Positions 15,842-51,653 of a stretch of DNA of 64,000 bases are shown in pieces. The translations under genes were made by a program, and so were the position numbers. Below the pieces are notes generated by a model. That model saw only the letters and a program-made list of their open reading frames with translations. It searched no databases and was not told the origin of the DNA. The stretch's first letter is position 1, and every line of letters starts with the position of its first letter. Origin of the DNA: an uncultured Rhodospirillaceae bacterium (GTDB lineage: Bacteria > Pseudomonadota > Alphaproteobacteria > Rhodospirillales > Magnetospirillaceae); the NCBI GenBank assembly GCA_903901915.1, contig CAIUSV010000084.1, positions 1-64,000 of the forward strand, given 5' to 3'.

Positions 15842-15859
15842 TAGTCCCAAACGGGACTG
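15842..15859 (-). promoter_or_regulatory. CAGTCCCATTTGGGACTA-type operator-like site A
   Basis: + strand TAGTCCCAAACGGGACTG; 83 nt upstream of the LuxR-hemerythrin gene. Confidence 0.6.
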
Positions 15860-15937
15860 GCTATTTTACCAATTCTGTGATTCGCCGTGTGAGATTTCCG
15901 TGTTCCGCCGCCCGAATGCCCGATTGGGGCGAAACAC

Positions 15938-16261
15938 CTAGGCCGGCTTGGTGCCCCGAATTGGAGCAGTTGGCCCCCGGACCGAGGAGGGGCGCCGGCC
16001 GGCCGGGATGTCATCATTGGCCTGCGCCTTCTTGCGCACGACAAAGCCCTGCAAAGCCCAGCCCATCATATAGAGTGTCGTCGCGAAGAATAAGACGCCC
16101 GATGTGCCGAATACCAGTGCGCGACGAATAGCATCACTCGATGTGCCAAATATGCCAAGTGACCAGAGCATGGGGGTTGTGAATATTATGGAAACGCTTG
16201 CCGCGAGACCAAGTCGTGTCCAGCCGCTACTTTTTGTGATGGATGTGCCGCTATCCGCCAT
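15938..16261 (-). CDS. Small two-TM membrane protein
   Basis: MADSGTSITKSSGWTRLGLAASVSIIFTTPMLWSLGIFG...GVLFFATTLYMMGWALQGFVVRKK. Confidence 0.65.
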   Translation of the reverse strand: MADSGTSITKSSGWTRLGLAASVSIIFTTPMLWSLGIFGTSSDAIRRALVFGTSGVLFFATTLYMMGWALQGFVVRKKAQANDDIPAGRRPSSVRGPTAPIRGTKPA

Positions 16262-16339
16262 CGCCCGTCTTTGCAAGAAGTATGTTTTTTGCTAAGAATA
16301 ACAAGCGATTCAGGGTAGTTTGGCCGTTAATGATATTCC

Positions 16340-16357
16340 TAGTCCCAAATGGGATTG
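16340..16357 (-). promoter_or_regulatory. Operator-like site B
   Basis: + strand TAGTCCCAAATGGGATTG between divergent genes starting at 16261 (-) and 16409 (+). Confidence 0.6.
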
Positions 16358-16408
16358 GTGTAGTCGCCCTGGGTGGTGGAAAGCTTTGCCTATCGATTGG
16401 AGCAGGAC

Positions 16409-17302
16409 ATGGCTGAAATAAGAATTCTTGCCGTGGATGACGACAGCATTGTTCTGACGTTGTTGCGCGAGTCCATGATCGACGACGGATTCGATGTGGT
16501 ATGCGCCTCTGATGGCCGGCAAGCCATGGAGATACTCAACGACGGCCCCGATGAGTTCGATGCCGTCGTCCTCGATTGGCTGATGCCCGGCATGGACGGC
16601 ATGGACGTCCTGAAAGTCATGGCCGCCGACACCCGCTTTATCGGCCTGCCCGTCATCATGCAGACGTCGCAGGTCGAGGATCATCAGGTCCAGGAGGCGA
16701 TCCAGGCCGGAGCCTACTATTACATCACCAAGCCCTACGATCATGAAACCCTGTTGAGGGTCGTGCGTGCCGCGGTGGAGAAATTCCGCCAGTTCCGCGA
16801 AGGCATGTCGTGGGGGATCGAGGCGACCGCCGGGCTGGCGCTGCTGCGCAGCGGCGTCTTCGAGATCAAAACCCTGTCAGAAGGACACATGGTCTCCAAT
16901 CTTCTGGCTGATCTTGCCGAACGTCCCGCTCCCATTATCAGCGGCCTGTTGGAACTGATCACCAATGCGATCGAGAACGGTAATCTTGGTATCGATTATC
17001 GTGACAAGGCGCGCTTCATCGCGCTTGGCCGGTGGGATGAGGAACTGCGGCGGCGGCTTTATCTGCCCGAGAATGTTGACAAGGTGGTGACCATCACCTT
17101 TTCCGTCTCCGGTGCCGAGGTGACGGTTGACATCCAGGATTGCGGTGCCGGGTTCGATCCGAGCCCCTATCTCAGGCTCGATAAAAGCCGCGCCTATGAT
17201 CCCCATGGCCGGGGTATCGCCATGGCGGCGGCCTTCTCGTTCAAATCCATCGCCTACAGCGACGGCGGCCGTCGCGTACGTATCACGTTCGACGCCGCTT
17301 GA
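16409..17302 (+). CDS. Response regulator with C-terminal RsbW-type HATPase (REC-HATPase_c_2)
   Basis: REC DAVVLDWLMPGMDG...YYITKPYD; ATPase ELITNAIENGNLGI, DCGAGFD; no HisKA. Confidence 0.85.
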   Translation: MAEIRILAVDDDSIVLTLLRESMIDDGFDVVCASDGRQAMEILNDGPDEFDAVVLDWLMPGMDGMDVLKVMAADTRFIGLPVIMQTSQVEDHQVQEAIQAGAYYYITKPYDHETLLRVVRAAVEKFRQFREGMSWGIEATAGLALLRSGVFEIKTLSEGHMVSNLLADLAERPAPIISGLLELITNAIENGNLGIDYRDKARFIALGRWDEELRRRLYLPENVDKVVTITFSVSGAEVTVDIQDCGAGFDPSPYLRLDKSRAYDPHGRGIAMAAAFSFKSIAYSDGGRRVRITFDAA

Positions 17303-17865
17303 CCCCCGAGGGCTCCACCATGATGCGCCCCGCCGCGCAGACTCGTGATCATCAGTCATCCTACCGGTTGAGGTCCGGTCTGGTGGTGACGCGGACCCCG
17401 CGCCATCGGCGGATTGTCGAAGACATGCTGGCCATGGCCGATATGCGTCGGGTCGAGCATGTTCCCGACGCCGAGGCGGTCATCTTGAAGCTTCAATACG
17501 AACGGCAGGCGGGCTTCGTGCTTTGCGAGGCGGATGAAAGCACCCGTCACCACCTCGCAATCGCTAAATTCGTTCGTTGGAACAAGGCTTCTCCGTCGAT
17601 ACACCTGCCTATCGTTGCCCTGGGGGATCGCTGGACCCTTCCTTTGGTGAAGGAGGCGCGGGACGCCGGAGTTACGGAAATCATCGGCACGCCAATCGCC
17701 ATCTACGCCTTCATGCGCCGCTTCGTATCGGCGCTGTATCAGGAACGACGGTTCATCATGGCGCCCCTTTATCGTGGTCCGGATCGGCGGAAGCATCCGG
17801 ATATCACATACAAGGGGCCGTGGCGGCGATCTGACGATTCGCCCCAAGCGATCAATCGAGGTTGA
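17299..17865 (+). CDS. Pseudo-receiver protein with GPDRR tail (1)
   Basis: KFVRWNKASPSIHLPIVALGDRWTLPLVKEARDAGV; tail YRGPDRRKHPDITYKGPWRRSDD. Confidence 0.7.
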   Translation: MTPEGSTMMRPAAQTRDHQSSYRLRSGLVVTRTPRHRRIVEDMLAMADMRRVEHVPDAEAVILKLQYERQAGFVLCEADESTRHHLAIAKFVRWNKASPSIHLPIVALGDRWTLPLVKEARDAGVTEIIGTPIAIYAFMRRFVSALYQERRFIMAPLYRGPDRRKHPDITYKGPWRRSDDSPQAINRG

Positions 17866-17866
17866 T

Positions 17867-18517
17867 ATGCATGGGAGGCTGAAACCTCTGGCATCGTGTT
17901 GTTGTATACTGGCCATATCAGATGATATGTGCCTGAAGGCGACGCGTGATATTCTTTATAATATGAAAATAACAAATTTTGAGATTGTCCGTGATGGCGG
18001 GGCCGCCATTTTCTCATTAAGGAAATCGCCGTTTGTTGACTTTGTTATTTGTCAGGATGACGTTCCGGTTGGTGGGTGTCTGTCTGTCCTGAAGTTTGTC
18101 AGGTTTGACCGGGGATTTTCGCGATCGAATCTTCCCGTTCTTGCCATCGGGTCCAGTTGGACGCATGAGAAGATCGGTGCATATAGGGATGCAGGCGTAT
18201 CGGATATATTAAGTTTTCCGGTGTCGCAATATTCCATGCAGCGCCGGATATTGTCGTCGATATATTCCGAGCGCCAGTTCGTTTCGACCGAGGGCTATTG
18301 CGGTCCGGACCGGCGCCACCGCAACGATCCCGGCTATATGGGGCCGTTCAGGCGGTTCACCGATGTGATCGCGCAGAAAATCACCGTTCACCGCAAGCCC
18401 GCGGCCAAGCCGCCCGCCGCGCCGGAAAGCCGGCCCGCGCCGCCGCCACAGCCGCCGCCGTCTCCGCTCGGCGCCATGTCGCAGGAGGAATTGGCCAAGA
18501 TGCTTGGCAAGAAGTGA
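17867..18517 (+). CDS. Pseudo-receiver protein with GPDRR tail (2), Pro-rich C-terminus
   Basis: KFVRFDRGFSRSNLPVLAIGSSWTHEKIGAYRDAGV; tail YCGPDRRHRNDPGYMGPFRRFTD; start follows stop of the previous gene (TGATATG). Confidence 0.7.
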   Translation: MHGRLKPLASCCCILAISDDMCLKATRDILYNMKITNFEIVRDGGAAIFSLRKSPFVDFVICQDDVPVGGCLSVLKFVRFDRGFSRSNLPVLAIGSSWTHEKIGAYRDAGVSDILSFPVSQYSMQRRILSSIYSERQFVSTEGYCGPDRRHRNDPGYMGPFRRFTDVIAQKITVHRKPAAKPPAAPESRPAPPPQPPPSPLGAMSQEELAKMLGKK

Positions 18518-18559
18518 TCTTGGCCTGATGTGCCTTGCCCGCCGTTTCGCGCGGCAGGC

Positions 18560-18590
18560 AAAAGCCCCGGTCCTGCGACCGGGGCTTTTC
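18560..18590 (+). terminator. Intrinsic terminator
   Basis: 13-bp perfect stem AAAAGCCCCGGTC / GACCGGGGCTTTT. Confidence 0.8.
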
Positions 18591-18619
18591 GAGTCCGGCT
18601 TTCCGTCGGGGCTTTCCTA

Positions 18620-18644
18620 GAGTTTCAGCTTGAAGCTGATACTC
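18620..18644. repeat. Inverted repeat GAGTTTCAGCTT/GAAGCTGATACTC
   Basis: Near-perfect palindrome between convergent genes. Confidence 0.5.
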
Positions 18645-18705
18645 CAGGATTCTGGTTGTACGAAAAAGCTGCGCCTTTTCATGGCTCAAACGCCGCTCCG
18701 GCTCA

Positions 18706-18738
18706 AGAGTTTCCCGATTTTTAAATGCGGGAAACTCT
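18706..18738. repeat. Inverted repeat AGAGTTTCCCG / CGGGAAACTCT
   Basis: 11-bp perfect arms with 11-nt loop; overlaps stop of the minus-strand SBP gene. Confidence 0.6.
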
Positions 18739-19903
18739 AATTGATGATCACCCAGTCGCCCCGGCGGACCTCAAGCAGGCGCAACGAGTCGAAGGACAGG
18801 CCGTTATGGTCGGTCTCGCTCATATTGAAGACGCCGTTGGCTCCCACCAGATCGTTGGTCTTTTCGATGGCATCACGGACCTTTTCCTTGTCCATGCTGC
18901 CCGCCCGCTTGATCGCGTCGGCAAAGATGAGCATGGCGTCGAAGGCGTTGGAACCGAAAGCCGAAACGGATTCCTTGTAACGGGCCTCGTATCGCTTCTG
19001 GTAGTCCTTCACCACCGGGGCCTGACGATCGGAATCGGGCAGCTTGTCGGCGACCACGGCGGTGGCGGCCGGAATACGCATCCCTTCCGCCGCTTCCTTG
19101 GCCATGGCGATGAAATCCTTCGAGGCGACGCCATGGGAATGGTAGGTGGGCAGCTTCATATCCAACTGGCGGTAATTGCGGCTGACCACCGCCGGGCCTT
19201 GTCCCAGGCCCCAAATGATCAGCGCCTGGGGGTCGGCGTTGCTGCGGATCTTGGTCAGCTGCGGGGTCATGTCGGCATCCTTGGCCCCGTAGGTTTCATC
19301 GGCGACGATCTGGACGCCGTAGGACGGGGCCACGGCCATGATCTGCTCGCGGCCGGATTTGCCGAACGCCGAGTCCTCGGACAGCAACGCCACCTTGGTC
19401 AAGCCGCGCGCCTTCATGTCGACGAACACTTTCTCGGCGGCCATCCGGTCGGTATGGGGAATCTTGAAGACCCATTTGCGCACCGGATTGACGATGACGA
19501 TCGCCCCGGCGTTGGAGATGAAGGGAATGCCGGCCTTTTCCGCCAGCGGGACCACCGCCATGGTGGTGGCGGTGGTGCTGGCGCCGATCAGGATATCGAC
19601 GCCGTCGTTCTCGATCAGGCGCTTGGCCAGGGAGGCCGCCTTGTCGGGGGCGCCGCCGTCGTCATACATCACCATCTCGATCTGACGTCCGAGCAGGCCG
19701 CCGGAAGCATTGAGGCGGGCCACCTCCAGTTCCATGGTCTTCTTCGCCGGTTCGCCGAGAAATGATGCCGGCCCCGTCACCGACAGGAAGGTTCCGATCC
19801 GAATGGGTTGCTCGGCCGCCTGCGCGGTTCCCGTCAACGCCGCCAAAGCCAGCGTCGCGACACCAAGCGTCAGGGTTCTGAAAGTCTCCAGGATATCGCG
19901 CAT
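18737..19903 (-). CDS. LivK-like branched-chain amino acid-type periplasmic binding protein (orphan)
   Basis: Signal peptide MRDILETFRTLTLGVATLALAALTGTAQAAEQ; PIRIGTFLSVTGPASFLGEPAKKTMEL. Confidence 0.9.
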   Translation of the reverse strand: MRDILETFRTLTLGVATLALAALTGTAQAAEQPIRIGTFLSVTGPASFLGEPAKKTMELEVARLNASGGLLGRQIEMVMYDDGGAPDKAASLAKRLIENDGVDILIGASTTATTMAVVPLAEKAGIPFISNAGAIVIVNPVRKWVFKIPHTDRMAAEKVFVDMKARGLTKVALLSEDSAFGKSGREQIMAVAPSYGVQIVADETYGAKDADMTPQLTKIRSNADPQALIIWGLGQGPAVVSRNYRQLDMKLPTYHSHGVASKDFIAMAKEAAEGMRIPAATAVVADKLPDSDRQAPVVKDYQKRYEARYKESVSAFGSNAFDAMLIFADAIKRAGSMDKEKVRDAIEKTNDLVGANGVFNMSETDHNGLSFDSLRLLEVRRGDWVIIN

Positions 19904-19943
19904 GTTCCCTCCCACTTTTTTAACGAGATTTGTCTCGTCTATT

Positions 19944-19963
19944 GTGAGTTGAACTATCAACTG
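19944..19963. promoter_or_regulatory. Candidate MarR operator 1
   Basis: GTGAGTTGAACTATCAACTG; reverse complement matches 20655-20674 at 18 of 20 positions. Confidence 0.6.
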
Positions 19964-20084
19964 GATTCGGCGGCGGAGTCAACATGCCGAGATTGCGTCC
20001 CGAAGAGCGGCGTCCTATCTATCGCTATTCTGGGGTGTTCGCCCCCGGGGATGTGTTCGGAAAAAGCAGGCGTTCGGGTCACTG

Positions 20085-20612
20085 ATGAAAATCGCGAAAT
20101 CCACCGCAGCGGTGAAAGGCGCCCAGCCCCAGGTTGATGGCGCCATGGTCAAATGGACGTTGGACCTGGAGCGCTATGTTCCGGCTTTGCTGGTTTTTCT
20201 GGCGAACAAGATCACCAACGGCGCCTCCAACCTTTACCGCAAGAACTTTGGCGTCGGCGTCATCGAGTGGCGATGCATGGGGCTGATCGCCATCGAACCC
20301 TGGGCGTCGCCCAATCGGATCTGTCAGGTTATCGGGTTGGACAAGGCGGCGGTCAGTCGCAGCATTCGCTCGCTGGAAAAGAAGGCCTTGGTGGAGGTTC
20401 GCTCCAGCAGCCAGCGCGCCCGTTTCCTCGAGGTCGCCCTGACCGAGACGGGATGCCGACTGTACGACAGGATGATCCAGGTGGCCTTCGAGAGGGAAGG
20501 GCGGTTGTTGGCGGACATCACGCCGCAAGAGCGCGAGGCGCTTATCAGCATGCTCAACCGCATGCATCAACGGATTCCCACCGTCAACGGACCCATCGAC
20601 ATTCCGCGATAG
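20085..20612 (+). CDS. MarR family transcriptional regulator
   Basis: EPWASPNRICQVIGLDKAAVSRSIRSLEKKALVEVRSSSQRARFLEVALTETG. Confidence 0.85.
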   Translation: MKIAKSTAAVKGAQPQVDGAMVKWTLDLERYVPALLVFLANKITNGASNLYRKNFGVGVIEWRCMGLIAIEPWASPNRICQVIGLDKAAVSRSIRSLEKKALVEVRSSSQRARFLEVALTETGCRLYDRMIQVAFEREGRLLADITPQEREALISMLNRMHQRIPTVNGPIDIPR

Positions 20613-20654
20613 GCCGGGCCGTTCGATGGCGTAGCGCCTTCGGTGTCGCGAAAC

Positions 20655-20674
20655 GAGTTGATAATTCAACTCAC
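20655..20674. promoter_or_regulatory. Candidate MarR operator 2
   Basis: GAGTTGATAATTCAACTCAC, palindromic, upstream of the corrinoid/URO-D genes. Confidence 0.6.
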
Positions 20675-20837
20675 ATCCGCTATCTAGGATTCACCACAAG
20701 CCCGACGATCAAGCAATGCGGGCGGAAACGGGGATGGAACCAAGCCGGCGGATAATTCCGCTCGCAAGCGCCGCCGTGCGCATGCTCCCGCGTTTCCCGA
20801 AGGTTATCGCGTCGATACCGCGTGAGGGAGGCTGCTC

Positions 20838-21488
20838 ATGACCGATGAAGAAAAGCGACTGGTGGACCTGCTGTCCTCGATGGAGGAGGACGAAGCCCTG
20901 GCCCTGGCCAAACGGATGCTGCTGGAAGACCACAAGGACCCGATCCGGGTGTTGGAACTTTGCCGCTTGGCCATGGATGCCGTCGGCAAGCTGTTCGCGG
21001 AAGGGGAGTACTTCCTGCCGGAACTGGTGCTGGCCGGCGAGATGCTGGAGCAGATTTCCGCCATCGCCAAGCCGCTCATCACCCAGAGCGGCGGAGCGGC
21101 GGCCAAGAAACGGGGTAAGGTGCTGATCGGCACCGTCCACGGCGACCTGCACGACATCGGCAAGAACATCGTCTGCTTCATGCTCGACATCAACGGCTTC
21201 GAGGTCAAGGACATCGGCATCGACGTGCCGGTCAAGACCTTCATCGAAGAGATCAACGCCTTTCAGCCCGATGTGGTCGGCTTGTCCGGCTTTCTTACCC
21301 TGGCCTTTGATTCCATGAAGGAAACCATCGCCGCTTTCGAGAGCGAAGGCGTGCGCCAGGGCTTCAAGATCATGATCGGCGGCGGCCAGATCGACGAAAC
21401 CGTCCGCGCCTATACCGGCGCCGATGCCTTCGGCGTCAATGCCGTCGAGGCGGTCAATCTGTGCAAGAAATGGCTGGAGGCGGCGTGA
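20838..21488 (+). CDS. Methyltransferase corrinoid-binding protein (B12-binding)
   Basis: GTVHGDLHDIGKNIVCFMLDINGFEVKDIGIDV (DxHxxG), methionine-synthase-like cap. Confidence 0.9.
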   Translation: MTDEEKRLVDLLSSMEEDEALALAKRMLLEDHKDPIRVLELCRLAMDAVGKLFAEGEYFLPELVLAGEMLEQISAIAKPLITQSGGAAAKKRGKVLIGTVHGDLHDIGKNIVCFMLDINGFEVKDIGIDVPVKTFIEEINAFQPDVVGLSGFLTLAFDSMKETIAAFESEGVRQGFKIMIGGGQIDETVRAYTGADAFGVNAVEAVNLCKKWLEAA

Positions 21489-22761: not shown

Positions 22762-23118
22762 CTAATCGTTGTGCGGTCTGGAATAGTCGATTTGTGTCTT
22801 GATCGACATCAGCTCGGCGCTGACGGAATCGACCAACTTATCGAGTAGTTCCGTAATATGAACGTTGAATGAATTGGCGTATTCAACTGCTTCTAGGGCA
22901 TATCTCTGTGCGCTGATTGTGTCTCCGCGCGAGATTGCCGCACCGATAATAGACGAATATCGAGCAAGCTCGGTCCTTGCCTCATGAATGCGCCTATTCA
23001 GGCTGGTGTCGCCATTGTCGTTGCTGGCGAAATATCCGGCGCTACGCGATGAATCGTGTGTGTTCGGCATTGATCCAGGCCCCAGATCACTCGTTCCTAT
23101 ACTATCTCCGGGCGCCAT
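22762..23118 (-). CDS. Hypothetical protein
   Basis: ORF continues upstream to 23238 but shorter start proposed (MAPGDSIGTS) because an operator-like site lies at 23129-23146. Confidence 0.5.
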   Translation of the reverse strand: MAPGDSIGTSDLGPGSMPNTHDSSRSAGYFASNDNGDTSLNRRIHEARTELARYSSIIGAAISRGDTISAQRYALEAVEYANSFNVHITELLDKLVDSVSAELMSIKTQIDYSRPHND

Positions 23119-23128
23119 GATGAATTTA

Positions 23129-23146
23129 TAGTCCCAAATCGCACTG
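23129..23146 (-). promoter_or_regulatory. Operator-like site C
   Basis: + strand TAGTCCCAAATCGCACTG. Confidence 0.5.
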
Positions 23147-23423: not shown

Positions 23424-24407
23424 TTGATATTTTTGGAATACAGCATGAATAAAGTACGCAACAGCGCCGAGCTTATATCTCGAATCGCCGTGGCCTTCTG
23501 GTCGATGGTATTTAGCGGTAATAATGGATGCGTATCATTTATAGATGAGATTGCCCGTTCATCGCGATGCCGGATTTTGACGATCTGTACGGCATGCGGG
23601 TTACTCGTCCTTGTCGGTTCTATCCCCGCATCAGCTCAGGTCGCGACCACGCCGAGCTATTCGTTTGGCATCGTTCCGCAACAGGCCGCCTCGCGGCTGG
23701 CATCGACCTGGGGCCCCCTTCTCGCCAAGATCGCCAGGGACTCGGGAGTGAACTTGAGTTTCAAGACAGCTCCCGATATTCCAACATTTTATCAACGCGT
23801 GGAATCCGGAGAGTATGACATAGCGTATTTGAACCCGTATCAGTACATAAGTGCCCACTCCCAGGTTGGATTCGAGGCTATTGCCAAGGAAAAGGCACGT
23901 AAAATTCAGGGAATCGTCGTCGTCAAGGCGGATAGCCCCATTCGTGTCTTGGAAAACCTCAAGGGAGTGACCGTGGCATTCCCTTCGCCCCAGTCGTTTG
24001 CCGCGAGCATTCTGCCCCGAGCCGCGCTGAGGAGTAAGGGGATTGCCATCGAGGCGAAGAATGTTGGTTCGCACGAATCCGTTTATCTCGCCGTGGCGAG
24101 TGGACTATTGCCGGCGGGAGGAGGCATCGTTCGTACACTTGAAACCATGCCGCCGGAAATTCAGGCAAGCTTGAGGATTCTTTGGTCTACCGAAAAATTC
24201 ACCCCGCATGCCATCGCCATTCATCCCCGAGTTCCCGCAGGTCATGTTGACCGCCTGCTACGGGTGATGCTGGCGCTTGAGGACAGCGAAGAGGGGCGCG
24301 GCTTGCTGGCGGCAATCGGCTTCAACGGTATCGAGGTGGCGAAGAATTCGGATTGGGATGATATCCGGCAATTGGAGATTACTCCGGCCGAGGCGCTCGG
24401 AAAATAG
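23424..24407 (+). CDS. PhnD-like periplasmic substrate-binding protein
   Basis: YSFGIVPQQAASRLASTWGPLLAKIARDSGVNLSFKTAPDIPTFYQRVESGEYDIAYLNPYQY. Confidence 0.85.
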   Translation: MIFLEYSMNKVRNSAELISRIAVAFWSMVFSGNNGCVSFIDEIARSSRCRILTICTACGLLVLVGSIPASAQVATTPSYSFGIVPQQAASRLASTWGPLLAKIARDSGVNLSFKTAPDIPTFYQRVESGEYDIAYLNPYQYISAHSQVGFEAIAKEKARKIQGIVVVKADSPIRVLENLKGVTVAFPSPQSFAASILPRAALRSKGIAIEAKNVGSHESVYLAVASGLLPAGGGIVRTLETMPPEIQASLRILWSTEKFTPHAIAIHPRVPAGHVDRLLRVMLALEDSEEGRGLLAAIGFNGIEVAKNSDWDDIRQLEITPAEALGK

Positions 24408-24476
24408 GTCGCCAAATAACATGTGTTCGATACGTCATGGCTGATTTTTTTATAAATAGTGTGCGGGTGCATCGGT

Positions 24477-26318
24477 ATGGCGATGTCATTTCGTCTGAAG
24501 ACAATAGTGGGGATTGCCGCGATTGAAGCGGCTCTCCTCGTCACTCTCGTTTGGAGTGGTCTTGGTTATATTCAGACAACAAATGAAACGGCACTTAATC
24601 GTCGCGCTTCCGATACGGCGCTGATGTTTTCAACAAACCTAAAAAATTATATAATTTCTTCTGATATTGCCTCCATATATGCCTTCTTCAGGGAAAATGA
24701 AAAGAACAATGATCTTGCATCAGCATATCTCTTTGATGAGCGCGGACAAAAAATTTCTGGGTTCAGTAAGTCATTGGAACAAGACTCGATTATTTCAAAA
24801 GGAAGCGCGCTAATCGAGGAAGGCGGAATCGTGTTCGGCCGGGTCGATGTCGGATATGATACCAGGGGAATTCGCGAGGCTGTTTTGGAGGCAAGACGCT
24901 TATTCATATCTATTGCACTTGTTGAAATCGTTCTTGTCGCTCTATTTTCCTACCTTCTCGGGACACATCTTACCCAACGGATCAAGTTGTTGGAGAATGG
25001 TGTGATGAAGGTTGCCAATGGTGAGTTTAGCTATGTGGCATCGGCTGTTTCCCACGACGAGATCGGAAGAACCATCGTCGCGTTCAATAGAATGGTTGAC
25101 GTTTTGAGGTCAAGTCACGAAATATCGACGATTAAAAATAAGCTGAGCGAGGCTCACCGTATCGCCCGTCTTGGATATATTGAAATGAACAGCGCAACCG
25201 GTGTGTGGACGATTGGCGATGGTGCGCATGATATGCTTGGGTTAAGTCCATCGGTGTCATCTGGTATGATGGATTCTGTGTTTTGTAATGTTATTTCTGA
25301 CGATTATGAAAGGTTGCGCGATATCGTTGGCCGCTTTGATTTCAATAATCTTGATATAGAAATGAAAGTGGATGGCAAGATTCTTCATGCCCTTGGGCAA
25401 TCAACAGAAACAACTCTGGAAGAGAATACCTTCGTCGTTACCTTGCAAGACGTGACGCAGCAGCGTGCCGCCGAGCGCGAGCGAACGGTATTGATTGAGC
25501 GGCTGTCCGAGGCAAGCCGACTGGAATCGCTCGGTACCTTGGCTGGCGGGGTGGCGCATGAAATCAATACGCCGGCGCAGTATATCGGCGACAATCTGTC
25601 CTTCATCAAGGATTTGCTGCCCCGTCTTCTCGATGTCGCCACGGAGGCCCGTGCGGCGGCTACGACCGGGGATTGGACCAGGGTGGCCGCTGCCGCGGCC
25701 GCGTTCAATTATGATTTCGCCGTGCAGGAACTACCCGTTGCCGCCGACCAGGCGTTGGCCGGGATCGAACGAATTTCCACGATTGTTACGGCGATCAAGG
25801 CGTTCTCGTACCCCAGTGGCAAGACGCCGATGCCATTTGATATCAACCGGGCGATCGAGATGGCCGCGACAGTGACATCAAGCCAATGGAAATACGTTGC
25901 GACTCTCGATCTGAGGCTCGATCACGATCTCCCTGCGTTGAATGCCATAGAAGGTGAAATTAATCAGGTTCTTATAAATCTCATCGTTAACGCGGCGCAG
26001 GCCATCGGCGAAGCCGAGAATCGGGATCCGGGCCGAATCGATATCGCGACCCGATTGGTGGACCGCGATATTGAAGTCTCGGTTGCGGATACCGGTGTCG
26101 GCATTTCCGCCGAGAACCAGGGCCGGTTGTTCGAGATGTTTTTCACCACCAAGCCGCCGGGCCAGGGCACCGGGCAAGGTCTGGCCATCACCCGGGCAAT
26201 CATTCTTCGCCATGGCGGCTCCATTCGCGTCGAGTCGAAGCCGGGGGCCGGTGCCTGTTTCCTTGTACGATTGCCGGTTGATGGTCCACCACCGGAGCTC
26301 CGGGAGGTCCCGGCATGA
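24477..26318 (+). CDS. Sensor histidine kinase (TM, HAMP, HATPase)
   Basis: LGTLAGGVAHEINTPAQYIGDNLSFIKDLL; NLIVNAAQAIGEA; GTGQGLAITRAIILRHGG. Start uncertain (ORF opens at 24459). Confidence 0.87.
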   Translation: MAMSFRLKTIVGIAAIEAALLVTLVWSGLGYIQTTNETALNRRASDTALMFSTNLKNYIISSDIASIYAFFRENEKNNDLASAYLFDERGQKISGFSKSLEQDSIISKGSALIEEGGIVFGRVDVGYDTRGIREAVLEARRLFISIALVEIVLVALFSYLLGTHLTQRIKLLENGVMKVANGEFSYVASAVSHDEIGRTIVAFNRMVDVLRSSHEISTIKNKLSEAHRIARLGYIEMNSATGVWTIGDGAHDMLGLSPSVSSGMMDSVFCNVISDDYERLRDIVGRFDFNNLDIEMKVDGKILHALGQSTETTLEENTFVVTLQDVTQQRAAERERTVLIERLSEASRLESLGTLAGGVAHEINTPAQYIGDNLSFIKDLLPRLLDVATEARAAATTGDWTRVAAAAAAFNYDFAVQELPVAADQALAGIERISTIVTAIKAFSYPSGKTPMPFDINRAIEMAATVTSSQWKYVATLDLRLDHDLPALNAIEGEINQVLINLIVNAAQAIGEAENRDPGRIDIATRLVDRDIEVSVADTGVGISAENQGRLFEMFFTTKPPGQGTGQGLAITRAIILRHGGSIRVESKPGAGACFLVRLPVDGPPPELREVPA

Positions 26319-35814: not shown

Positions 35815-35832
35815 GAGTCTCATTTAGGACTT
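35815..35832 (+). promoter_or_regulatory. Operator-like site D
   Basis: GAGTCTCATTTAGGACTT; 51 nt upstream of the ORF at 35883. Confidence 0.45.
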
Positions 35833-35882: not shown

Positions 35883-36668
35883 GTGGAGGCGCAAATGGGT
35901 GCCGCTGCACAGCCGTCGCACTGCCAACACCGGGCAGGTCTTGCGATCCAGGTATTTGCCAAGGCTCTGGAGGAACAGGCCGTCGAAGGCTTCGTCTCCG
36001 TTCGCTCCATCGAACAGCTTTATAAGGTGATGGTGCAGGCGCCGGGGGCTTTGGCTGAACACTATTCCCTGGCCGAGAAAACGTGCACTGCCGGTTTTGT
36101 CCTGTCTCCGCCCGACGCCGACGAGGCGGTTCATGATGGCGATATCGAGCCGACGCCCGCCGTGGCCTCTCGGCCGTGCCCGAGTGCCCCAGGGGGGGCG
36201 CGCGGCCCAAGTGGTTTGGCGGCCGGAGCCGGTGATGCGGTGCAGGGGCGGAGGGGCGCAGTTTCCTCGGCCTACTGGGTCGCGATGGCGGCGGGAGCGG
36301 CGGCGCTGACGATGGTGTCGTGGCTGCTCACACAGTGGTCTGGGGGGACGTCCACCGAGAGTACGACATTGGCGGATGCCCGCATGTTCACCTCCCAGGT
36401 CTTGGACGCCGCATCAGGCTCCGGTGAAGTCCGTCACCTGTTCGGGGGGCAAATCAAGGTGGTCGAAAGCGGAGGCCGTATCGTCGTCGTCGCCGAAAAT
36501 ATTCCCCCCCGGGTTTGCGGTGCATCCGGTTGGACCCTCGCCCGCAAGGGGCTGTTAACCATCAACGGCATTACCCCGAATCGCCTGTCCCGGGCGATCG
36601 TGATCGATCTCTGCGGCCGTGAGGGCGGCGGAGCCAACTTAATGTGGATTCCCAAAACGGTAGAATAA
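35883..36668 (+). CDS. TM-anchored protein with type IVb pilin (PilS)-like head
   Basis: TM YWVAMAAGAAALTMVSWLL then LFGGQIKVVESGGRIVVVAENIPPRVCGASGW...LLTINGI...DLCG...NLMWIP; GTG start likely. Confidence 0.5.
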   Translation: MEAQMGAAAQPSHCQHRAGLAIQVFAKALEEQAVEGFVSVRSIEQLYKVMVQAPGALAEHYSLAEKTCTAGFVLSPPDADEAVHDGDIEPTPAVASRPCPSAPGGARGPSGLAAGAGDAVQGRRGAVSSAYWVAMAAGAAALTMVSWLLTQWSGGTSTESTTLADARMFTSQVLDAASGSGEVRHLFGGQIKVVESGGRIVVVAENIPPRVCGASGWTLARKGLLTINGITPNRLSRAIVIDLCGREGGGANLMWIPKTVE

Positions 36669-37414: not shown

Positions 37415-38197
37415 TCACTCAAACATTCGGTCGATGTCGTTCTGGCTGCACCCCTCGCCGACCAACTGAGGGCCATTCAAGAGGTTGGATTCATCGGTGT
37501 CGGGGCGACGCTTGGGGGCAGCTTCGCCGTGAACGCCACCCCATATGGCAATCATGGAATTGACCCGGTCTTCGATATATTTGAGGGTATGGACGACCTT
37601 TGTGATCCGCTGGCCGGTAATGTCCTGGAAATTGCAGGCTTCAAGCACCGAAACCAGCTTTTCAAGGACGATGTCGGCGACACAACTCACGTAGGGGTCG
37701 GAAACGTGCAGGCGCAGGTCCTGTACCAGGGCATCGACGGATTCGACGGAATCAAGTATGGCCTGCGTGGCGTTTTCCGTTGCCACCACAATCGTATCCA
37801 ACTCGTTGGAGACGATAACGATATGATCGTCGCCACTTTGCGCCGGCCGGATTGCCGCAATCTCTGACTTCGTCTTGTTGATGCACATCGCCAAGGCGCG
37901 GATCTCCGTCTTTAAAACAGAGATGTCCTCACCCTTGGCCGTCATTTCGCCCGCGTCATCGGGCGTCGTTTCCTCGGGGAGGCCACGGCTGCCGTCAAAG
38001 CCGTCCGTCGGCCGGCATCTCGCGAAGTCACGGCGTAACGTGGCGACCTCGTGACGGAGCGCGGCAAATTCGTTGCGCATTTCCATCAGAGCGGTGCCCA
38101 TTTGATCGGAAGGAGCCGCGGGGGATCGCCACGCGGCTCGATTTCGCTGCTCAAGAAGACGGCGTTCGGCCGAGAACAAAGCGGGAGGCGCGATCAT
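37415..38197 (-). CDS. CheZ-like protein phosphatase
   Basis: EACNFQDITGQRITKVVHTLKYIEDRV (CheZ DxxxQ catalytic motif) and C-terminal CSQNDIDRMF. Confidence 0.75.
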   Translation of the reverse strand: MIAPPALFSAERRLLEQRNRAAWRSPAAPSDQMGTALMEMRNEFAALRHEVATLRRDFARCRPTDGFDGSRGLPEETTPDDAGEMTAKGEDISVLKTEIRALAMCINKTKSEIAAIRPAQSGDDHIVIVSNELDTIVVATENATQAILDSVESVDALVQDLRLHVSDPYVSCVADIVLEKLVSVLEACNFQDITGQRITKVVHTLKYIEDRVNSMIAIWGGVHGEAAPKRRPDTDESNLLNGPQLVGEGCSQNDIDRMFE

Positions 38198-38260: not shown

Positions 38261-38278
38261 CAGTCCCATTTGATATCG
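38261..38278. promoter_or_regulatory. Operator-like half site E
   Basis: CAGTCCCATTTGATATCG upstream of the cheZ-like gene; one arm intact. Confidence 0.35.
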
Positions 38279-40138: not shown

Positions 40139-40156
40139 TAGTCCCAAATGGCACTG
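40139..40156 (-). promoter_or_regulatory. Operator-like site F
   Basis: + strand TAGTCCCAAATGGCACTG between divergent genes at 40102 (-) and 40265 (+). Confidence 0.55.
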
Positions 40157-40264
40157 TTCTCGGCTTTGAATCCTGGCACCCTGACGCCCGTCGATTGATG
40201 GGGTATTGGGAAATCGCGCAGGTCGATAGGCAGGCGACGAAGGTATTGATTGGGGCGGTCCGCG

Positions 40265-40663
40265 ATGAATGTCGAACAGGTTCTGGGTATCAAGGGGGAG
40301 GCGACCCACACCATCTCTCCCGACAAGACCTTGAGGGAGCTGGCCTGCCGGTTGCTCGAAACCAAGACGGGATTGCTGGTCTGCGTTGATCGGTCGAACA
40401 GTATCATCGGTGTCGTTTCCGAAAGGGATCTGACCCAGACCGTGGCCCGCCATGGGGAAAAGGCCCTGGGCATGGCGGTCGCGACATTCATGAGCCGGGA
40501 TGTCGTCGCCTGCGGGCTCAATGACGATATCGACGACCTGTTGGCGATCATGACGGAGGCGAGGTGCCGTCATCTGCCGGTCGTGCACGACGGGCGTCTT
40601 GTCGGGCTGGTCTCCATCGGCGATCTGGTCAAAGCCAATTTGCGCCGCCGCGCGCAGGGGTAG
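40265..40663 (+). CDS. CBS domain pair protein
   Basis: GLLVCVDRSNSIIGVVSERDLTQ...CRHLPVVHDGRLVGLVSIGDLVK. Confidence 0.85.
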   Translation: MNVEQVLGIKGEATHTISPDKTLRELACRLLETKTGLLVCVDRSNSIIGVVSERDLTQTVARHGEKALGMAVATFMSRDVVACGLNDDIDDLLAIMTEARCRHLPVVHDGRLVGLVSIGDLVKANLRRRAQG

Positions 40664-43367: not shown

Positions 43368-43385
43368 GGATCCCAAGTGGGACTA
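43368..43385 (+). promoter_or_regulatory. Operator-like site G, followed by TATAAT at 43395-43400
   Basis: GGATCCCAAGTGGGACTA. Confidence 0.55.
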
Positions 43386-43460: not shown

Positions 43461-43507
43461 GACGCGCGACGGGTCGATTCTTTGATTCAGGGGGGGAGCG
43501 TCCATTG

Positions 43508-44449
43508 ATGCGGGAACGCGCGGGGACCGGAAGTGAGGTGGCGCCGATGGCAAATGGTACGATTCTGGCGGTCGATGACGAGGGGCTTACCCTTCGGATC
43601 ATCAAGGATACCCTTGAGGACAGCGGGTTTGAGGTGGTTACGGCGACTAATGGCCGTGAGGCGCTTGACATATTGCAGGCCGATCCACAGCGCTTCGACG
43701 CGGTTGTCATCGATCGCATGATGCCGGAAATGAACGGCATGTCCGTATTGGATGCCATTCGTAATAATGATGATACTGTAAATATACCAGTAATATTCCA
43801 GACTGCCGCAAACAGATCTGAAGAGATGCGGGAGGGGATTGAAGCTGGGGCGTTTTATTACATCACAAAGCCGTATAATGAAAGCACGCTGGCGGCTATT
43901 GTAAGGTCCGGCGTGGATCGATATAAGCAAAATCGGCAGTTTGCTTCCTACATCAACGATAGTTCCGTCATGTTCGATGGGGCACATAGCCTGGTGAAAG
44001 GGGAGTTCCACTTTTCCTCTTTGGAAGAGGCCAGGACGGTGGTTTGGCTGATTTCCCAACACGCCGAGGAACCGGTCAACGTCAACCTTGCCCTACAGGA
44101 ACTGATCGCCAATGCGATCGAACACGGCAATCTTGGCATTGGCGGCGCCGAAAAAGAGCGCCTGATCCGTGACAATCGCTGGGATGCCGAAATTGCGCGC
44201 CGGATGGAATTGCCGGAAAATCAGGGCAAGGTGGTGGTGGTCCGGTTCGATGCGACCGACGAATTTGTAGGGGTTGCCGTTGAAGATCAGGGGGCGGGAT
44301 TTTCCTGGCATCGCTATCTCGCCGACGAGGTGAATTTGGAGAACCGGGTTCAGGGTCGCGGTATCGTTGTCGCCAGAAGCCTGGCATTCTCCGACCTTCG
44401 CTATGAAAATGGCGGAAGTCGGGCTGTGATGAGCTTCGCGCGGGGGTAG
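43508..44449 (+). CDS. Response regulator with C-terminal RsbW-type HATPase (paralog of 16409-17302)
   Basis: DAVVIDRMMPEMNG...YYITKPYN; ELIANAIEHGNLGI; DQGAGFS. Alternative start 43547. Confidence 0.85.
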   Translation: MRERAGTGSEVAPMANGTILAVDDEGLTLRIIKDTLEDSGFEVVTATNGREALDILQADPQRFDAVVIDRMMPEMNGMSVLDAIRNNDDTVNIPVIFQTAANRSEEMREGIEAGAFYYITKPYNESTLAAIVRSGVDRYKQNRQFASYINDSSVMFDGAHSLVKGEFHFSSLEEARTVVWLISQHAEEPVNVNLALQELIANAIEHGNLGIGGAEKERLIRDNRWDAEIARRMELPENQGKVVVVRFDATDEFVGVAVEDQGAGFSWHRYLADEVNLENRVQGRGIVVARSLAFSDLRYENGGSRAVMSFARG

Positions 44450-46396: not shown

Positions 46397-46441
46397 CGGG
46401 CGGGGAACGCGGCACTTTTCCTTGCCCCGGATCCGCCGTTG

Positions 46442-47881
46442 ATCTTGTCGCCGCGGTCGCAACGGGCGTTCGCGTTTTCCGTTGCCGGCTTCGTATTTTG
46501 CGTCTCTCTTTTCATGAGGGCACAGATTCTGGCCAGCCAGGATCTGTATCTTCATATCAGTTGCGGCCGATGGATTCTGGCTAACCGGACGGTCCCCGAT
46601 TTCGGACTGTTTTCCGGCACCATGCCTTCTGCGCCCTGGGTGGCGCATGAGTGGCTGGCATCGGTCGGCATGGCGCTGCTGTATGACCATCTGGGCTGGA
46701 CGGGACTCGTGGTGGCGACCGCCTTGCTGCTGGCGGTTGCCATCGGGGTGTTGACGTTTGAGACTGTCTGCACCACCGGTCCGGTCGGCGCGCTGGCCGC
46801 GGCGGTGCTGGGCTGGGGGTTGTGTGTCGGCCATCTGGTGGCGCGACCGCATGTCCTGTCGCTGCCCTTGGCCGTCATCTGGATTGCCGCCCACGTCCGG
46901 GCGCGGCGCGGCGGCGGCGTGCCGCCGTTGTATCTGGCCGGGCTCATGGCGCTGTGGGCCAATCTTCACGGCGCGTTTCTGTTCGGCATCGCGTTTACGG
47001 CGCTGTTCGCGGCGGAAGCCGTGTTGGAGTCCGGGGCCATGGCCGAAGCCGTTCGGGCGGGTCGGCGCTGGGGTCTATTCCTGGGTGCCGGCATTCTGGC
47101 CGCCGCAGTCACGCCGCATGGCCTGGACGGGCTGCTGTTTCCGATTCGCATGATGGGGCTTGGCCCCGCCGTGGCGGCCATCAACGAATGGCAGCCATCC
47201 AGCGTGTCGAATAATATGCCATTAATACTTTGGGTGTTCATTCTTATTTTTGCGTCTACCCTGTCGGGCGTCCGGCTTCCCGTGCTCAGAATTTTTATGC
47301 TTCTTATTCTTCTCTACATGGCTTTTGCTCATCGCCGTCATACGGAACTGCTTGGTTTGGCCGCGCCGCTTCTGCTGGGGAACGCCATTGCCGACAGGCT
47401 GTCCCGAAGCACGGTGATTTTGGCCCGGCCCTGGGGCGTTCTGGCGCGGCCGGCGGTGGTGGCGTCGGTGGCGGGGAGTGTGCTGATCGGCGTGCTTCTA
47501 TCGCTATCACTGGTATGGCGCGACATCGGTCGTGGGCCGGATCGCTTTACCCCGGCGGCGGCCCTGGCGGCGGTTCAGGCGCGCGGCATCACCGGCCCGG
47601 TGCTGAACGCCTATAACTTTGGCGGATATTTGATCTTTCAAGGCTATGCCCCTTTCGTCGATGGCCGCGCCGACATGTACGGCAACGACTTCATGACCCG
47701 GTATGGCGCGCTGGACCAGCTTCCGGGGTTGTTGGAGCAATACGCCATCGCCTGGACAATCTTCGAGCCGGGCAACCCACGGGCGGTGGTGATGGATCAT
47801 CTGTCCGGCTGGTCGCGTCTGTTCGCCGACGACGGTGCCGTGGTGCATGTCCGTCAGGCGCGATTATCGGGCCAGCCGTAG
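46442..47881 (+). CDS. Polytopic membrane protein (glycosyltransferase-like, unknown function)
   Basis: LASQDLYLHISCGRWILANRTVPDFGLFSGTMPSAPWVAHEWLA; about ten hydrophobic segments. Overlaps the end of the convergent gene. Confidence 0.65.
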   Translation: MLSPRSQRAFAFSVAGFVFCVSLFMRAQILASQDLYLHISCGRWILANRTVPDFGLFSGTMPSAPWVAHEWLASVGMALLYDHLGWTGLVVATALLLAVAIGVLTFETVCTTGPVGALAAAVLGWGLCVGHLVARPHVLSLPLAVIWIAAHVRARRGGGVPPLYLAGLMALWANLHGAFLFGIAFTALFAAEAVLESGAMAEAVRAGRRWGLFLGAGILAAAVTPHGLDGLLFPIRMMGLGPAVAAINEWQPSSVSNNMPLILWVFILIFASTLSGVRLPVLRIFMLLILLYMAFAHRRHTELLGLAAPLLLGNAIADRLSRSTVILARPWGVLARPAVVASVAGSVLIGVLLSLSLVWRDIGRGPDRFTPAAALAAVQARGITGPVLNAYNFGGYLIFQGYAPFVDGRADMYGNDFMTRYGALDQLPGLLEQYAIAWTIFEPGNPRAVVMDHLSGWSRLFADDGAVVHVRQARLSGQP

Positions 47882-50725
47882 GCCGACGACGTCGTTGCGG
47901 TTTACCGGCGCGTAGATGTCGCGGCTGGCCGAGCGGGTGAAGCGCGGCTTGGCGGTCCACGAGCCGCCACGGACGACGCGGAACTTGCAATCCTCCGCTT
48001 CCGCCGCAGTTCCGTCCGAGGGGGCCTTGGCGTAGTCGCCGAAACAATCCTGCGTCCACTGGAACACGTTGCCAACCATATCGAACAGCCCGAACGGGTT
48101 GGGCTTCAGCGATCCCACCGGCGCCGTCTCGTCGTAGCCATCCGCGCAATTGATGATGGCTTCATCGACGTTGAAGTGTTTGCTCTTGTAGGTGAGGTCA
48201 CGCATGTTGGCGTAGGCGCAGCCGCTTTCCACCCTGTCGCCCCAGAACCACGCGGTGGTGGTTCCCGCTCGGGCGGCGTATTCCCATTGCGCCTCGCTGG
48301 GCAAGCGATAGGGGTGGCTGCCGAAGAAACGCATCCGCCAGGCAAAGGCGCGCGCGTCGTCCCAACTGATCATTTCCACCGGATTGCGCGCCCCCCGGAA
48401 CCGTGACGGCGCCGGGTTCTCGACCATCACCAGTCGCCATTCCTCCTGGGTGACGGCAAATTTGCCCAGGTCGAAGGCGGGGATACAGACCTGATGCGGG
48501 GTTTCATGGTCGAACCTGCCGACCTCACTCGGCGGACTGCCCATGACGAAGCAACCCTGGGGAATGGGTACGAAGGCCATTTCCCCCTCGACCTGCCGTA
48601 CGCCGCGCCAGACCAGCACCGCCCATACTATTCCGGCCACGATCGGAAGCAATGCCACCGCGCCGGCCAGGGTCAGGATCGTCCGCCGTCGTTGTCGCTT
48701 CGCCAGACGGTGGCTTTCGCCGATGAATGCCGCCACCTCCGCCGGCAGTTCACTTTTCCCCCAACGGCGCTTCAGGGCTAGGGCTTCGATCAGCGGCAGG
48801 CCGCGGGGCAGGGCCAGGCTGTCGCGGTATTTTCTCTCGGAGGCCCCCCAGCGCGCGGCGGCGTGTTCGAGGCGCCCCAGCAGTTCAAGATCACGGCTGT
48901 CGGCGGCGATCTGGTCGCTGGCGCGAGGCCAGTGACTGAGCAATGCCTCGTGGGCCACCCGAACCCGCACCCCTTCGGCGTCTCCGTCGGCGATCAGCAG
49001 CCGCGTCTCGGGGGCGAGAAAGGCGTCCACCAACTGGCGGGCCGGGCTGCCGACCGGGAATTGAGACATCGCGGCGGCGCGTGCCGTCGCGGTGCCGCCG
49101 CTTCCCTGGCCCACGGTCACCAGCGTCCGCAGGACGGTCGGCAACGCCGCCCTGGCTTCGTCGGACAGGCGCGCCAGCTCCATTTCGGCGCGCTTGCCGA
49201 TGGCTCCTTCCAGTTCCCCCAGCTTTCCATAGGCATCGAAGGTCAGGTCGCCGTGTTCGCTTCGGTTCTGCCAAAGCTGGTCGAGCAGGAAGGAGAGAAG
49301 GGGGAGGGCGCCGGGATTGCTGGATGCCGCCGCCCGGATTTTCTCGTCCAATGTCAGGCTGCTGGTGGCATCGGTCTCGTAGCGTACTCCCGCTTCATGG
49401 GCAGGCTGGCGGATGATCTGGGCGATTTCCGCCGGTTCCGGAGACGTCAGCAGATAGCGAGCCTCGGACGAAAGCCGCGCTAGGCACGGCAGTGTTTCAA
49501 GCCGATTGAAGAAGTCGCTACGCAGGGTGGCGATCACCCACACCAATTGGCTTTCGGCCAGCGCCGCCAACGCCGCGACGAAGGCATCGCGCTCTGGCTG
49601 GGACACGCCATCCTGGGTGAATATCTCCTCCAACTGGTCGACCACGACCAGCAGGCGGGCCTCACCCCGTTCGGTCAGCTCAGCCTTCAGCCGGGCCGCC
49701 GCCAGTCCCTGGCGGATCGGCAGACTTGCCTGGGACGGGGCATCGCGAAGCAGCGCGGTCAAGGTTTTCTGGTCGTATTGCAGGGTCTCCAGTTCCGGCA
49801 GGGCAGCCGATGCCAGTATCGCCGCCGCCAGACCGCCGATCAGGTCGCCGCCGCCATCGGCCGGACGCAAGATGGCGTGGCGGACCAGCGCTACCCGCCC
49901 GATCATGCCGGGCAACTTGAGATCGGCCAGTACCCCGGCCTTGACCAACGACGACTTGCCGGACCCCGACGCCCCCATCACCAGAACGAAGGCCGTGCCA
50001 CGTTCGATCTGGCGTACAAGCAGCTCGCGCACGTCGTTGCGGGCGCGGGTGCGGCCGAAGAACACCGGCGCATGTTCAAGGTCGAAGGACTGGAGACCGC
50101 GGAACGGGCTGCCATGGTGCCAGCGGATGCTTGAGGGGCCTTCATCGGCACCCGCCAGGCGGCGCCGGATCAATTCGCGCAGATGGTTTTCCAGAAGGTC
50201 CTCGAACGACGCGGCGTCGGTGAATTCCCACGATGCTGCGGTGAACGACCCGTCGGCGGCGCGGGTCCAGCGCGTCATGAACTCCTCAACCAGCCGTTTC
50301 TGCTCAAAGTGTTCCCGTGCGGCGGTTTCGTCGTCCCTCAGCCGGGCCTCGGCCTTTTTGCGAAACAGCAGCAGATCGGGTTGGCGCCTGTTGCGGTAAG
50401 ACGCCAGCGCGTCCTCGAACTCCCATTCGGTGCCGGTGACGGTGCCGCCGGACAGAGGGCCGGTGTATTTGTCGGCTGGCAGCGGCACGCCGAGGCGGGA
50501 CCACAGGATCACCACCACGATGTCGGTCTCGTGCGGGGGGACGATGCCGTCCTGGAAATTCTCGCCGGCCACCAGCGGCTCGCGTTCCCAGAGCATGGCC
50601 TCGATACGGAAATGGTACGAGAACTCGCGGTCAAGCCGCTCGATCACCCGCTCGGCGATCAGCCGTTCGGGGCGCACGTCGCCAGGGGACGAGATGAATA
50701 CCCTGAGGCGTTGAAACTCCGCCAT
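47864..50725 (-). CDS. DUF4062-like + STAND NTPase + TM + FGE-sulfatase protein
   Basis: LRVFISSPGDVRPERLIAE; Walker A GASGSGKSSLVKAG; Walker B RLLVVVDQLEEIF; TM; MGSPPSEVGRFDHETPHQV...RLPSEAQWEYAARAG...RVVRGGSW. Confidence 0.88.
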   Translation of the reverse strand: MAEFQRLRVFISSPGDVRPERLIAERVIERLDREFSYHFRIEAMLWEREPLVAGENFQDGIVPPHETDIVVVILWSRLGVPLPADKYTGPLSGGTVTGTEWEFEDALASYRNRRQPDLLLFRKKAEARLRDDETAAREHFEQKRLVEEFMTRWTRAADGSFTAASWEFTDAASFEDLLENHLRELIRRRLAGADEGPSSIRWHHGSPFRGLQSFDLEHAPVFFGRTRARNDVRELLVRQIERGTAFVLVMGASGSGKSSLVKAGVLADLKLPGMIGRVALVRHAILRPADGGGDLIGGLAAAILASAALPELETLQYDQKTLTALLRDAPSQASLPIRQGLAAARLKAELTERGEARLLVVVDQLEEIFTQDGVSQPERDAFVAALAALAESQLVWVIATLRSDFFNRLETLPCLARLSSEARYLLTSPEPAEIAQIIRQPAHEAGVRYETDATSSLTLDEKIRAAASSNPGALPLLSFLLDQLWQNRSEHGDLTFDAYGKLGELEGAIGKRAEMELARLSDEARAALPTVLRTLVTVGQGSGGTATARAAAMSQFPVGSPARQLVDAFLAPETRLLIADGDAEGVRVRVAHEALLSHWPRASDQIAADSRDLELLGRLEHAAARWGASERKYRDSLALPRGLPLIEALALKRRWGKSELPAEVAAFIGESHRLAKRQRRRTILTLAGAVALLPIVAGIVWAVLVWRGVRQVEGEMAFVPIPQGCFVMGSPPSEVGRFDHETPHQVCIPAFDLGKFAVTQEEWRLVMVENPAPSRFRGARNPVEMISWDDARAFAWRMRFFGSHPYRLPSEAQWEYAARAGTTTAWFWGDRVESGCAYANMRDLTYKSKHFNVDEAIINCADGYDETAPVGSLKPNPFGLFDMVGNVFQWTQDCFGDYAKAPSDGTAAEAEDCKFRVVRGGSWTAKPRFTRSASRDIYAPVNRNDVVGLRLAR

Positions 50726-50824
50726 CGCCCCCCCTTCCGATCACGGCCGGATAAGCTTCAACGGATTGAACCATGCGGGGTTTCCCGGAGCAAGGTCCCG
50801 TAACCGATCATCTGAGCAGGGCGC

Positions 50825-51106
50825 TCAAGACGAAACCGGCGGATCGGTGTCGCCCCTGGCATAAAGCGCCAGCCGACCGGCGTTGGACACGATTCCGGGA
50901 AAGGCGGTGCCGAAAACCTCCCGCCATCTCCCTTCGACGTCGGATGGCAGTTCCGTTCCCGGCCGCGAAAGGCCCAGCCCCGATTGGTCGTTGATCGCGG
51001 TGAGTGCCGAGACGGCGGCATCGGCTTCACCGGCGCCTTCGGCCAGAACGGTCTGCTCGACGATCGTGCCGTCATCACAGGCGATGGAAAATGCCCACAG
51101 CGTCAT
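50825..51106 (-). CDS. Small hypothetical protein
   Basis: MTLWAFSIACDDGTIVEQTVLAEG..., upstream of and co-directional with the STAND gene. Confidence 0.5.
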   Translation of the reverse strand: MTLWAFSIACDDGTIVEQTVLAEGAGEADAAVSALTAINDQSGLGLSRPGTELPSDVEGRWREVFGTAFPGIVSNAGRLALYARGDTDPPVSS

Positions 51107-51195
51107 CGCGATTCTCCCGATCATCGGCATGGACGACGGCGCCGGCCCGAAGACCCTCCCTGATCGGAGGGAGGTGGTCAAGCGGCACATATTCC

Positions 51196-51441
51196 CTATC
51201 CTACAAATGGTGTCGCTCGCGCCGCCCGCCCGTTCGCCGGTCGCTGCGGGATATTTCCCGCCGAGGTCATGCCGAGCCGATACACGGCCCTTGTCGCTTC
51301 CAGTGCCGTCATGTCCGGACGGACGATCAGCACGGCGGCGACAGCCGCCTGGGACTGCCCGTTCATGTCCCGACCGAAAGCATGGGCGGCGCTGATCGCC
51401 CTGGCGATCACCCGCTGTAAAACCGGATCGACTTGGCCCAT
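51196..51441 (-). CDS. Small hypothetical protein
   Basis: MGQVDPVLQRVIARAISAAHAFGRDMNGQSQAAVAAVLIVRPDMTALEATRAVYRLG. Confidence 0.45.
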   Translation of the reverse strand: MGQVDPVLQRVIARAISAAHAFGRDMNGQSQAAVAAVLIVRPDMTALEATRAVYRLGMTSAGNIPQRPANGRAARATPFVG

Positions 51442-51635
51442 GGCGCCTCTCCTCCTGAGTCTCATACCGCTTATGTTCTCTATATGTTCTTGCGACGAAA
51501 GTCAATGCCGATGTCAGGCTTGCTTGACCGATCGGTCCGAATGTCGCCCGCAGGCCAGTTCCAAAAGGAACTTGTAATGGCGGCAGTTCCGCCGACGCCA
51601 ATCGGAGGTGGGATAATTCGCCGATCAATGGCGGA

Positions 51636-51653
51636 AAAGCCCATTTGGGACTA
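51636..51653 (+). promoter_or_regulatory. Operator-like site H
   Basis: AAAGCCCATTTGGGACTA, about 100 nt upstream of the CHASE kinase. Confidence 0.55.

Follow-up and report, generated by a model that had tools for sequence, protein, structure and literature searches.

The window analysed here (64,000 nucleotides; contig C84, 1.6% of this 4.1 Mb, 93-contig genome) carries a recurring 18-bp near-palindrome ahead of signalling genes, which raises the questions of whether it is a genuine regulatory site and, if so, which protein reads it. The original prediction took it for the operator of a single dimeric regulator, perhaps one of two LuxR-type helix-turn-helix (HTH) proteins encoded nearby. 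We find that the palindrome very probably serves as a genuine DNA switch ahead of oxygen/NO-sensor, chemotaxis and kinase genes in a Magnetospirillum-type bacterium, and comparisons among genomes indicate that its reader is most likely an uncharacterised response regulator (RR) encoded on contig C44, not the small LuxR proteins. The site sequences originally listed were confirmed at all nine of their positions, and those retained are as follows, with one additional tentative candidate in the last line:

15842-15859, minus strand: site A, CAGTCCCGTTTGGGACTA read toward the LuxR-hemerythrin gene; matrix score 24.4, 0.000 expected
16340-16357, no strand: site between divergent genes 15938-16276 (minus) and 16373/16409 (plus); matrix score 26.6, top of the window
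23129-23146, no strand: site between an unknown gene, 22765-23073 (minus), and the binding protein and HEINT kinase operon (23424-26318, plus); mismatch search and matrix
35815-35832, plus strand: weak site ahead of gene 35883; matrix and orthology
38261-38278, minus strand: site ahead of the CheZ gene; matrix score 19.4, which owes part of its weight to the similar training site C87:70969
40139-40156, no strand: site between a small membrane protein gene (minus) and the CBS-domain gene (plus); mismatch search and matrix
43368-43385, plus strand: site ahead of the second REC-HATPase gene; matrix; TATAAT 9 bp past the arm
51636-51653, plus strand: site ahead of the CHASE hybrid kinase gene; matrix; the CHASE region resembles that of a G008 kinase
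13967-13984, no strand: tentative near-palindrome CCGTCTCGATTGAGACTA, intergenic; ranked eighth, score 14.3, 0.2 expected per window

A search of the window for TAGTCCCAAATGGGACTG with up to three mismatches gave 5 matches, where dinucleotide shuffles predict 0.03. Because circularity was to be avoided, the position weight matrix took its training sites exclusively from beyond the window (8 in this genome and 5 in genome G049). Its nine best window matches, in descending order 16340, 15842, 40139, 38261, 51636, 23129, 43368, 13967 and 35815, are all intergenic in a window whose intergenic share is about 14%; the expected number of matches in shuffled windows is 0.00–0.08 for the top seven scores and 0.2 for the scores of 13967 and 35815. 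Eight of the nine sites originally listed stand by this measure, and the ninth, 35218, was rejected with a score of −15.8. Sites 38261 and 51636 are stronger than they had first been graded, and 35815 is weak by matrix score and backed by orthology (below). The sequences flanking the window sites are mutually unrelated. Site centres lie about 40–170 bp upstream of start codons, and inspection by eye found a −10-like hexamer 9 bp past the arm at 43368 and 40139 (TATAGC at the latter); a fixed −10 spacing, sought by eye across the sites, is absent at most others.

The genes associated with these sites, and the second LuxR-type gene of the original prediction, are:

14859-15146, plus strand: 95-aa LuxR HTH protein, no site nearby (domain search)
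15181-15759, minus strand: target, N-terminal LuxR HTH and partial bacteriohemerythrin domain (domain search)
16409-17302, plus strand: target, REC + HATPase_c_2 protein (domain search)
23424-24407, plus strand: probable target, phosphonate-type periplasmic binding protein (PF12974, 1.4e-58)
24459-26318, plus strand: probable target, HAMP histidine kinase in the same operon as the binding protein
35883-36668, plus strand: target, unknown protein with an orthologue in G049 (orthology)
37415-38197, minus strand: target, CheZ (PF04344, 1.2e-10)
40250-40663, plus strand: target, CBS-domain protein (domain search)
43505-44449, plus strand: target, REC + HATPase_c_2 protein, paralogue of 16409 (domain search)
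51719-55261, plus strand: target, CHASE-PAS-HisKA-HATPase-REC-Hpt hybrid kinase (domain search)

Since site 15842 precedes it, the LuxR-hemerythrin gene at 15181 is a likely target and not the master regulator, and site A marks it as such where autoregulation had been proposed. The domain order of its product is unusual, with the LuxR HTH at the N-terminus followed by the C-terminal part of a bacteriohemerythrin domain, and no full-length relative was found among the relatives searched. Both paralogues that join REC to an anti-sigma-type HATPase (16409 and 43505) have an operator site upstream. The gene that follows 35883 (36644) encodes a hemerythrin, as it does in G049. Outside the window, the targets include bphO/bacteriophytochrome (named from the translation) and a chemoreceptor operon at C22 (two sites). 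Contig C87 contributes a PAS kinase and a hemerythrin kinase, C44 a kinase of Cache type, C61 a further kinase and C88 an unknown 369-aa protein; a site at C71 has no clear target. The motif HEINTPAQ is present in several of the target kinases.

Genome-wide counts, which rest on pattern searches and sequence stretches, agree with the enrichment of sites in intergenic DNA expected under the original prediction. The pattern TAGTCCCAAATGGGACTG with up to three mismatches has 12 sites in the whole genome versus 0 for the reversed control pattern, and the relaxed 14-bp core RTCCCAWWTGGGAY with at most one mismatch has 14 versus 2 (5 of the 14 are inside the window). Chance matches inside genes (C3:13830 in an smc-like gene, C80:20836 in parA, and C13:11027) are about as numerous as the control predicts. 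We rejected C80:20836 and a near-perfect site in genome G011 as operators, since both lie within parA-like genes and represent coding coincidence.

The sites also recur upstream of orthologous genes in related genomes. At C88:72287 and G049:C319:4229 the site is kept ahead of proteins that are 76% identical, and most other intergenic bases have changed. The protein in question (369–389 aa; L126:6384-7490 and L150:4238-5404) retains this identity across genera, with the same operator and no Pfam match. The chemoreceptor operon keeps its site in four species (C22 here, G004, G007 and G016; the MCP is 82% identical), and G049:C286:8957 is the counterpart of 35815, at a nearly equal distance before the orthologue of 35883. 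The CHASE region of the 51719 kinase is 67% identical to that of a kinase that follows an RR and a site in G008; the kinase cores differ, as does the RR linkage between the window and G008, and the site is present in both. In two loci from distant genomes (L161 and L163) the neighbours of the RR are a phosphonate-type binding protein and a kinase, as in 23424/24459, and 23129 is therefore a plausible operator of the 23424-26318 operon. Sites, intergenic enrichment and conservation together support the predicted operator of one dimeric regulator ahead of signalling genes.

The protein that adjoins these sites is a 325-aa RR with a REC domain, a PAS-like middle and a divergent LuxR-type HTH; its orthologue in this genome lies outside the window (G000:C44:23797-24747), with paralogues at C74 and C76. 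A Response_reg domain was found in 17/17 members, in which the REC active-site residues D11, D12, D58 and K109 are invariant and T86 is conserved in at least 90%; the top NCBIfam match of the REC domain is the NosR family. The middle domain has weak Pfam PAS matches in 5–9 of the 17. Profile matches of the C-terminal domain in the PDB include VraR (1.9e-4), DevR (1.1e-3) and NarL (8e-3), and Pfam GerE detects the HTH in just 9 of the 17 at E ≤ 0.1. At 325 aa the RR does not have the direct joining of REC to HTH (~200–220 aa) that is typical of the NarL/FixJ class; we treat that joining as typical, not defining, and the RR is a variant architecture.

Sites and RR occur together. When a site is counted at no more than one mismatch to YASTCCCAWWTGGGASTR in 55 family genomes, 10 of the 11 with a class I or class II RR have sites versus 3 of the 44 without (Fisher p ~1e-7, ignoring the relatedness of the genomes). 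One of those three is G011, with its site inside the parA-like gene; among the listed genomes of genus g5, a class-I RR occurs in G049 alone, where the contig that encodes it bears four sites, and no site was found in G013 despite its class II RR. Across the order, sites stand beside or upstream of RR genes: 36 RR loci contain 20 exact cores (CCCAWWTGGG) versus 0.8 in shuffles, and 19 control loci retrieved with a LuxR query contain none. For 12 RRs, drawn from several families, the distance from the palindrome to the RR gene downstream is 28–134 bp, often 55–56 or 73–75. The RR promoters of G011, G057, G023b and C76 lack a clear site, and in this genome the C44 RR gene has no strict site upstream and a weak one, CAGTCCCAAACAGGACCT, on its 3' side. 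A class-wide search found distant RRs, among which a similar palindrome lies near the RR gene at L163 only (CATCCCCATAAGGGGAGG, 3'); at L164, TTTCCATAAATGGAAA is upstream of the RR.

In class II the palindrome is at the 3' end of the RR gene, ahead of the next gene, which encodes a CHASE kinase. There (L091, L095, L114 and L094) the operator overlaps the last RR codons, ACC CTC CCA AAT GGG AGT, which encode TLPNGS. In G012 the RR gene ends earlier and the palindrome is retained behind the stop; because the stop precedes the palindrome, G012 alone allows DNA conservation to be separated from protein conservation in this class.

The bases beside the core vary with the RR. All sites share CCCAWWTGGG, and the two flanking bases are GT, CT or TC; one class has TATCCCCATTTGGGGACA, another TACTCCC..., and this genome and G049 have TAGTCCC.... 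Mapped on the RR tree, the flanking types require 3 changes, where shuffles need 8.9 and none of 200 falls as low, a result to which the relatedness of near-copies contributes; the GT-type RRs do not form a single clade. In this genome the RR at C74 goes with the TC type and the other sites are mostly GT. The TC set constitutes a second, CATCCCCATTTGGGGACT-like operator type within the genome (C74:11141, C74:12823 and C76:39927; loci L158, L159 and L156), upstream of the C74 RR gene, a hemerythrin at C74 and a hemerythrin kinase at C76. In relatives the variant TACTCCCAWWTGGGAGTA is upstream of hemerythrin kinases and a PAS-chemoreceptor operon.

Could the regulator instead be one of the window's own LuxR-HTH proteins, with site A autoregulatory, as first proposed? 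Both the 15181 and the 14859 proteins have a GerE HTH, both genes sit within the site cluster, and site 15842 is upstream of the former; nonetheless, we consider this quite improbable. Their matches in G004, G014, G016 and G049 are generic (E ~1e-4 to 1e-5) and no close homologue was found in other motif-bearing genomes, so that these proteins, not being present wherever the operator occurs, were rejected on phylogenetic distribution. The LuxR-query control loci moreover lack the exact core, the flanking bases track a different protein family, the RR, and G011, whose LuxR HTH is 56% identical, has its sole site in the parA-like gene. Somewhat less improbable, but still unlikely, is that another conserved regulator binds the palindrome and the REC-PAS-HTH genes are merely among its targets, since co-occurrence and promoter sites by themselves do not distinguish binder from target and RR autoregulation is presumed. 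What speaks for the RR as the binder is that the flanking bases shift with RR subclade, that RR paralogues of one genome pair with different flanking bases, and that no other DNA-binding gene stood repeatedly beside the sites in the loci read.

Two further readings dispense with a DNA-binding protein. The palindrome might act as an RNA hairpin in a 5'-leader, given that GTCCC-AAAT-GGGAC can pair and that the GT/CT/TC changes preserve pairing; we regard this as very unlikely, since one degenerate arm would break the stem at 23129, 40139 and 51636, 16340 sits between divergent genes, and the constant AWWT centre with its seldom altered CCC/GGG better fits protein contact. Clustering of several near-identical copies within 36 kb might also suggest dispersed repeats (mobile or REP-like) with no regulatory role, to which we give hardly any weight, as their flanks are unrelated and the sites are rare within genes and recur before orthologues in other genera.

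We thus return to the RR. From its linkage to, and covariation with, sites that are enriched between genes and conserved before their targets, we infer that an RR dimer directly binds the inverted repeat, and it is likely that the palindrome is the operator through which the C44 REC-PAS-HTH RR would rewire its own sensory network, including its proposed kinase inputs. The operator, [CT]A-GT-CCCAWWTGGG-AC-T[AG], would be bound by a dimer of this NarL/FixJ-type RR with its PAS-like insert, after phosphorylation, probably by HEINT-type histidine kinases whose predicted inputs are oxygen/NO (hemerythrin), extracellular ligands (CHASE, Cache and the phosphonate-type binding protein) and light (bacteriophytochrome). 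Binding by the phosphorylated RR would alter transcription, most likely by activation; the position of the centres ~40–170 bp before starts and the two sites with a −10-like hexamer at 9 bp would suit an activator at the −35 region. The output would comprise the same kinases together with hemerythrins, chemoreceptors, CheZ, REC-HATPase and CBS proteins; the resulting feedback loop may reset the sensory equipment of the cell. A broader generalisation seems to us about evenly balanced: that among PAS-containing LuxR-type RRs across Rhodospirillales (broad sense) the core CCCAWWTGGG is common, the two neighbouring bases set specificity, paralogues keep separate regulons, and recoding among GT, CT and TC along the tree drives rewiring of oxygen/NO-taxis and kinase networks.

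A full-text literature search returned no match to the 18-mer and, for the core, only papers, as far as listed, unrelated to an operator of this kind; within the open literature that was searched, neither the operator nor its regulon appears to have been described. Two-component regulons of the NarL/FixJ type are a known kind of system; what appears to be new is the RR with its operator, together with the way flanking bases differ from one subclade to another. An uncharacterised RR family thereby acquires at once an operator, a list of targets and named predictions, and does so in a host that probably belongs to the genus used for magneto-aerotaxis studies, where a single regulator appears to determine the set of oxygen/NO, light and ligand sensors and of chemoreceptors that the cell makes. 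RR subclades that differ in flanking bases, including paralogues in the same genome, lend themselves readily to testing how cross-talk between related regulators is avoided.

Among known systems, response regulators of the NarL/FixJ/VraR type share REC, a C-terminal GerE-type HTH and inverted-repeat binding (predicted here), but the present RR has an extra PAS-like domain between REC and HTH and its HTH is divergent. The H-NOX/HnoK-HnoB-HnoC-HnoD and NosP-NahK NO networks are gas-sensing systems in which kinases act with several response regulators, including c-di-GMP outputs and a DNA-binding response regulator; the sensors here, in contrast, are of hemerythrin, CHASE or binding-protein type, not H-NOX or NosP. 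NsrR is not a response regulator. A report on the NsrR regulon of Magnetospirillum gryphiswaldense describes NO-linked regulation in the same genus (PMC11014258). The closest parallel in form is the DosR/DevR regulon of Mycobacterium tuberculosis, with its operator TTSGGGACTWWAGTCCCSAA (PMC2275270): it too combines a NarL/FixJ-type response regulator, a palindrome and a hypoxia context, its half-site TTSGGGACTW is nearly identical to the arm TTTGGGACTA, and DevR is among the HTH matches noted above, from which we claim no homology past the HTH fold. The palindrome is, however, not a DosR box, because the half-sites are in the opposite order (GGGACT-WW-AGTCCC in DosR versus AGTCCC-AWWT-GGGACT here), and the RR described here differs from DosR in having a PAS-like insert and, as targets, sensors and chemotaxis proteins.
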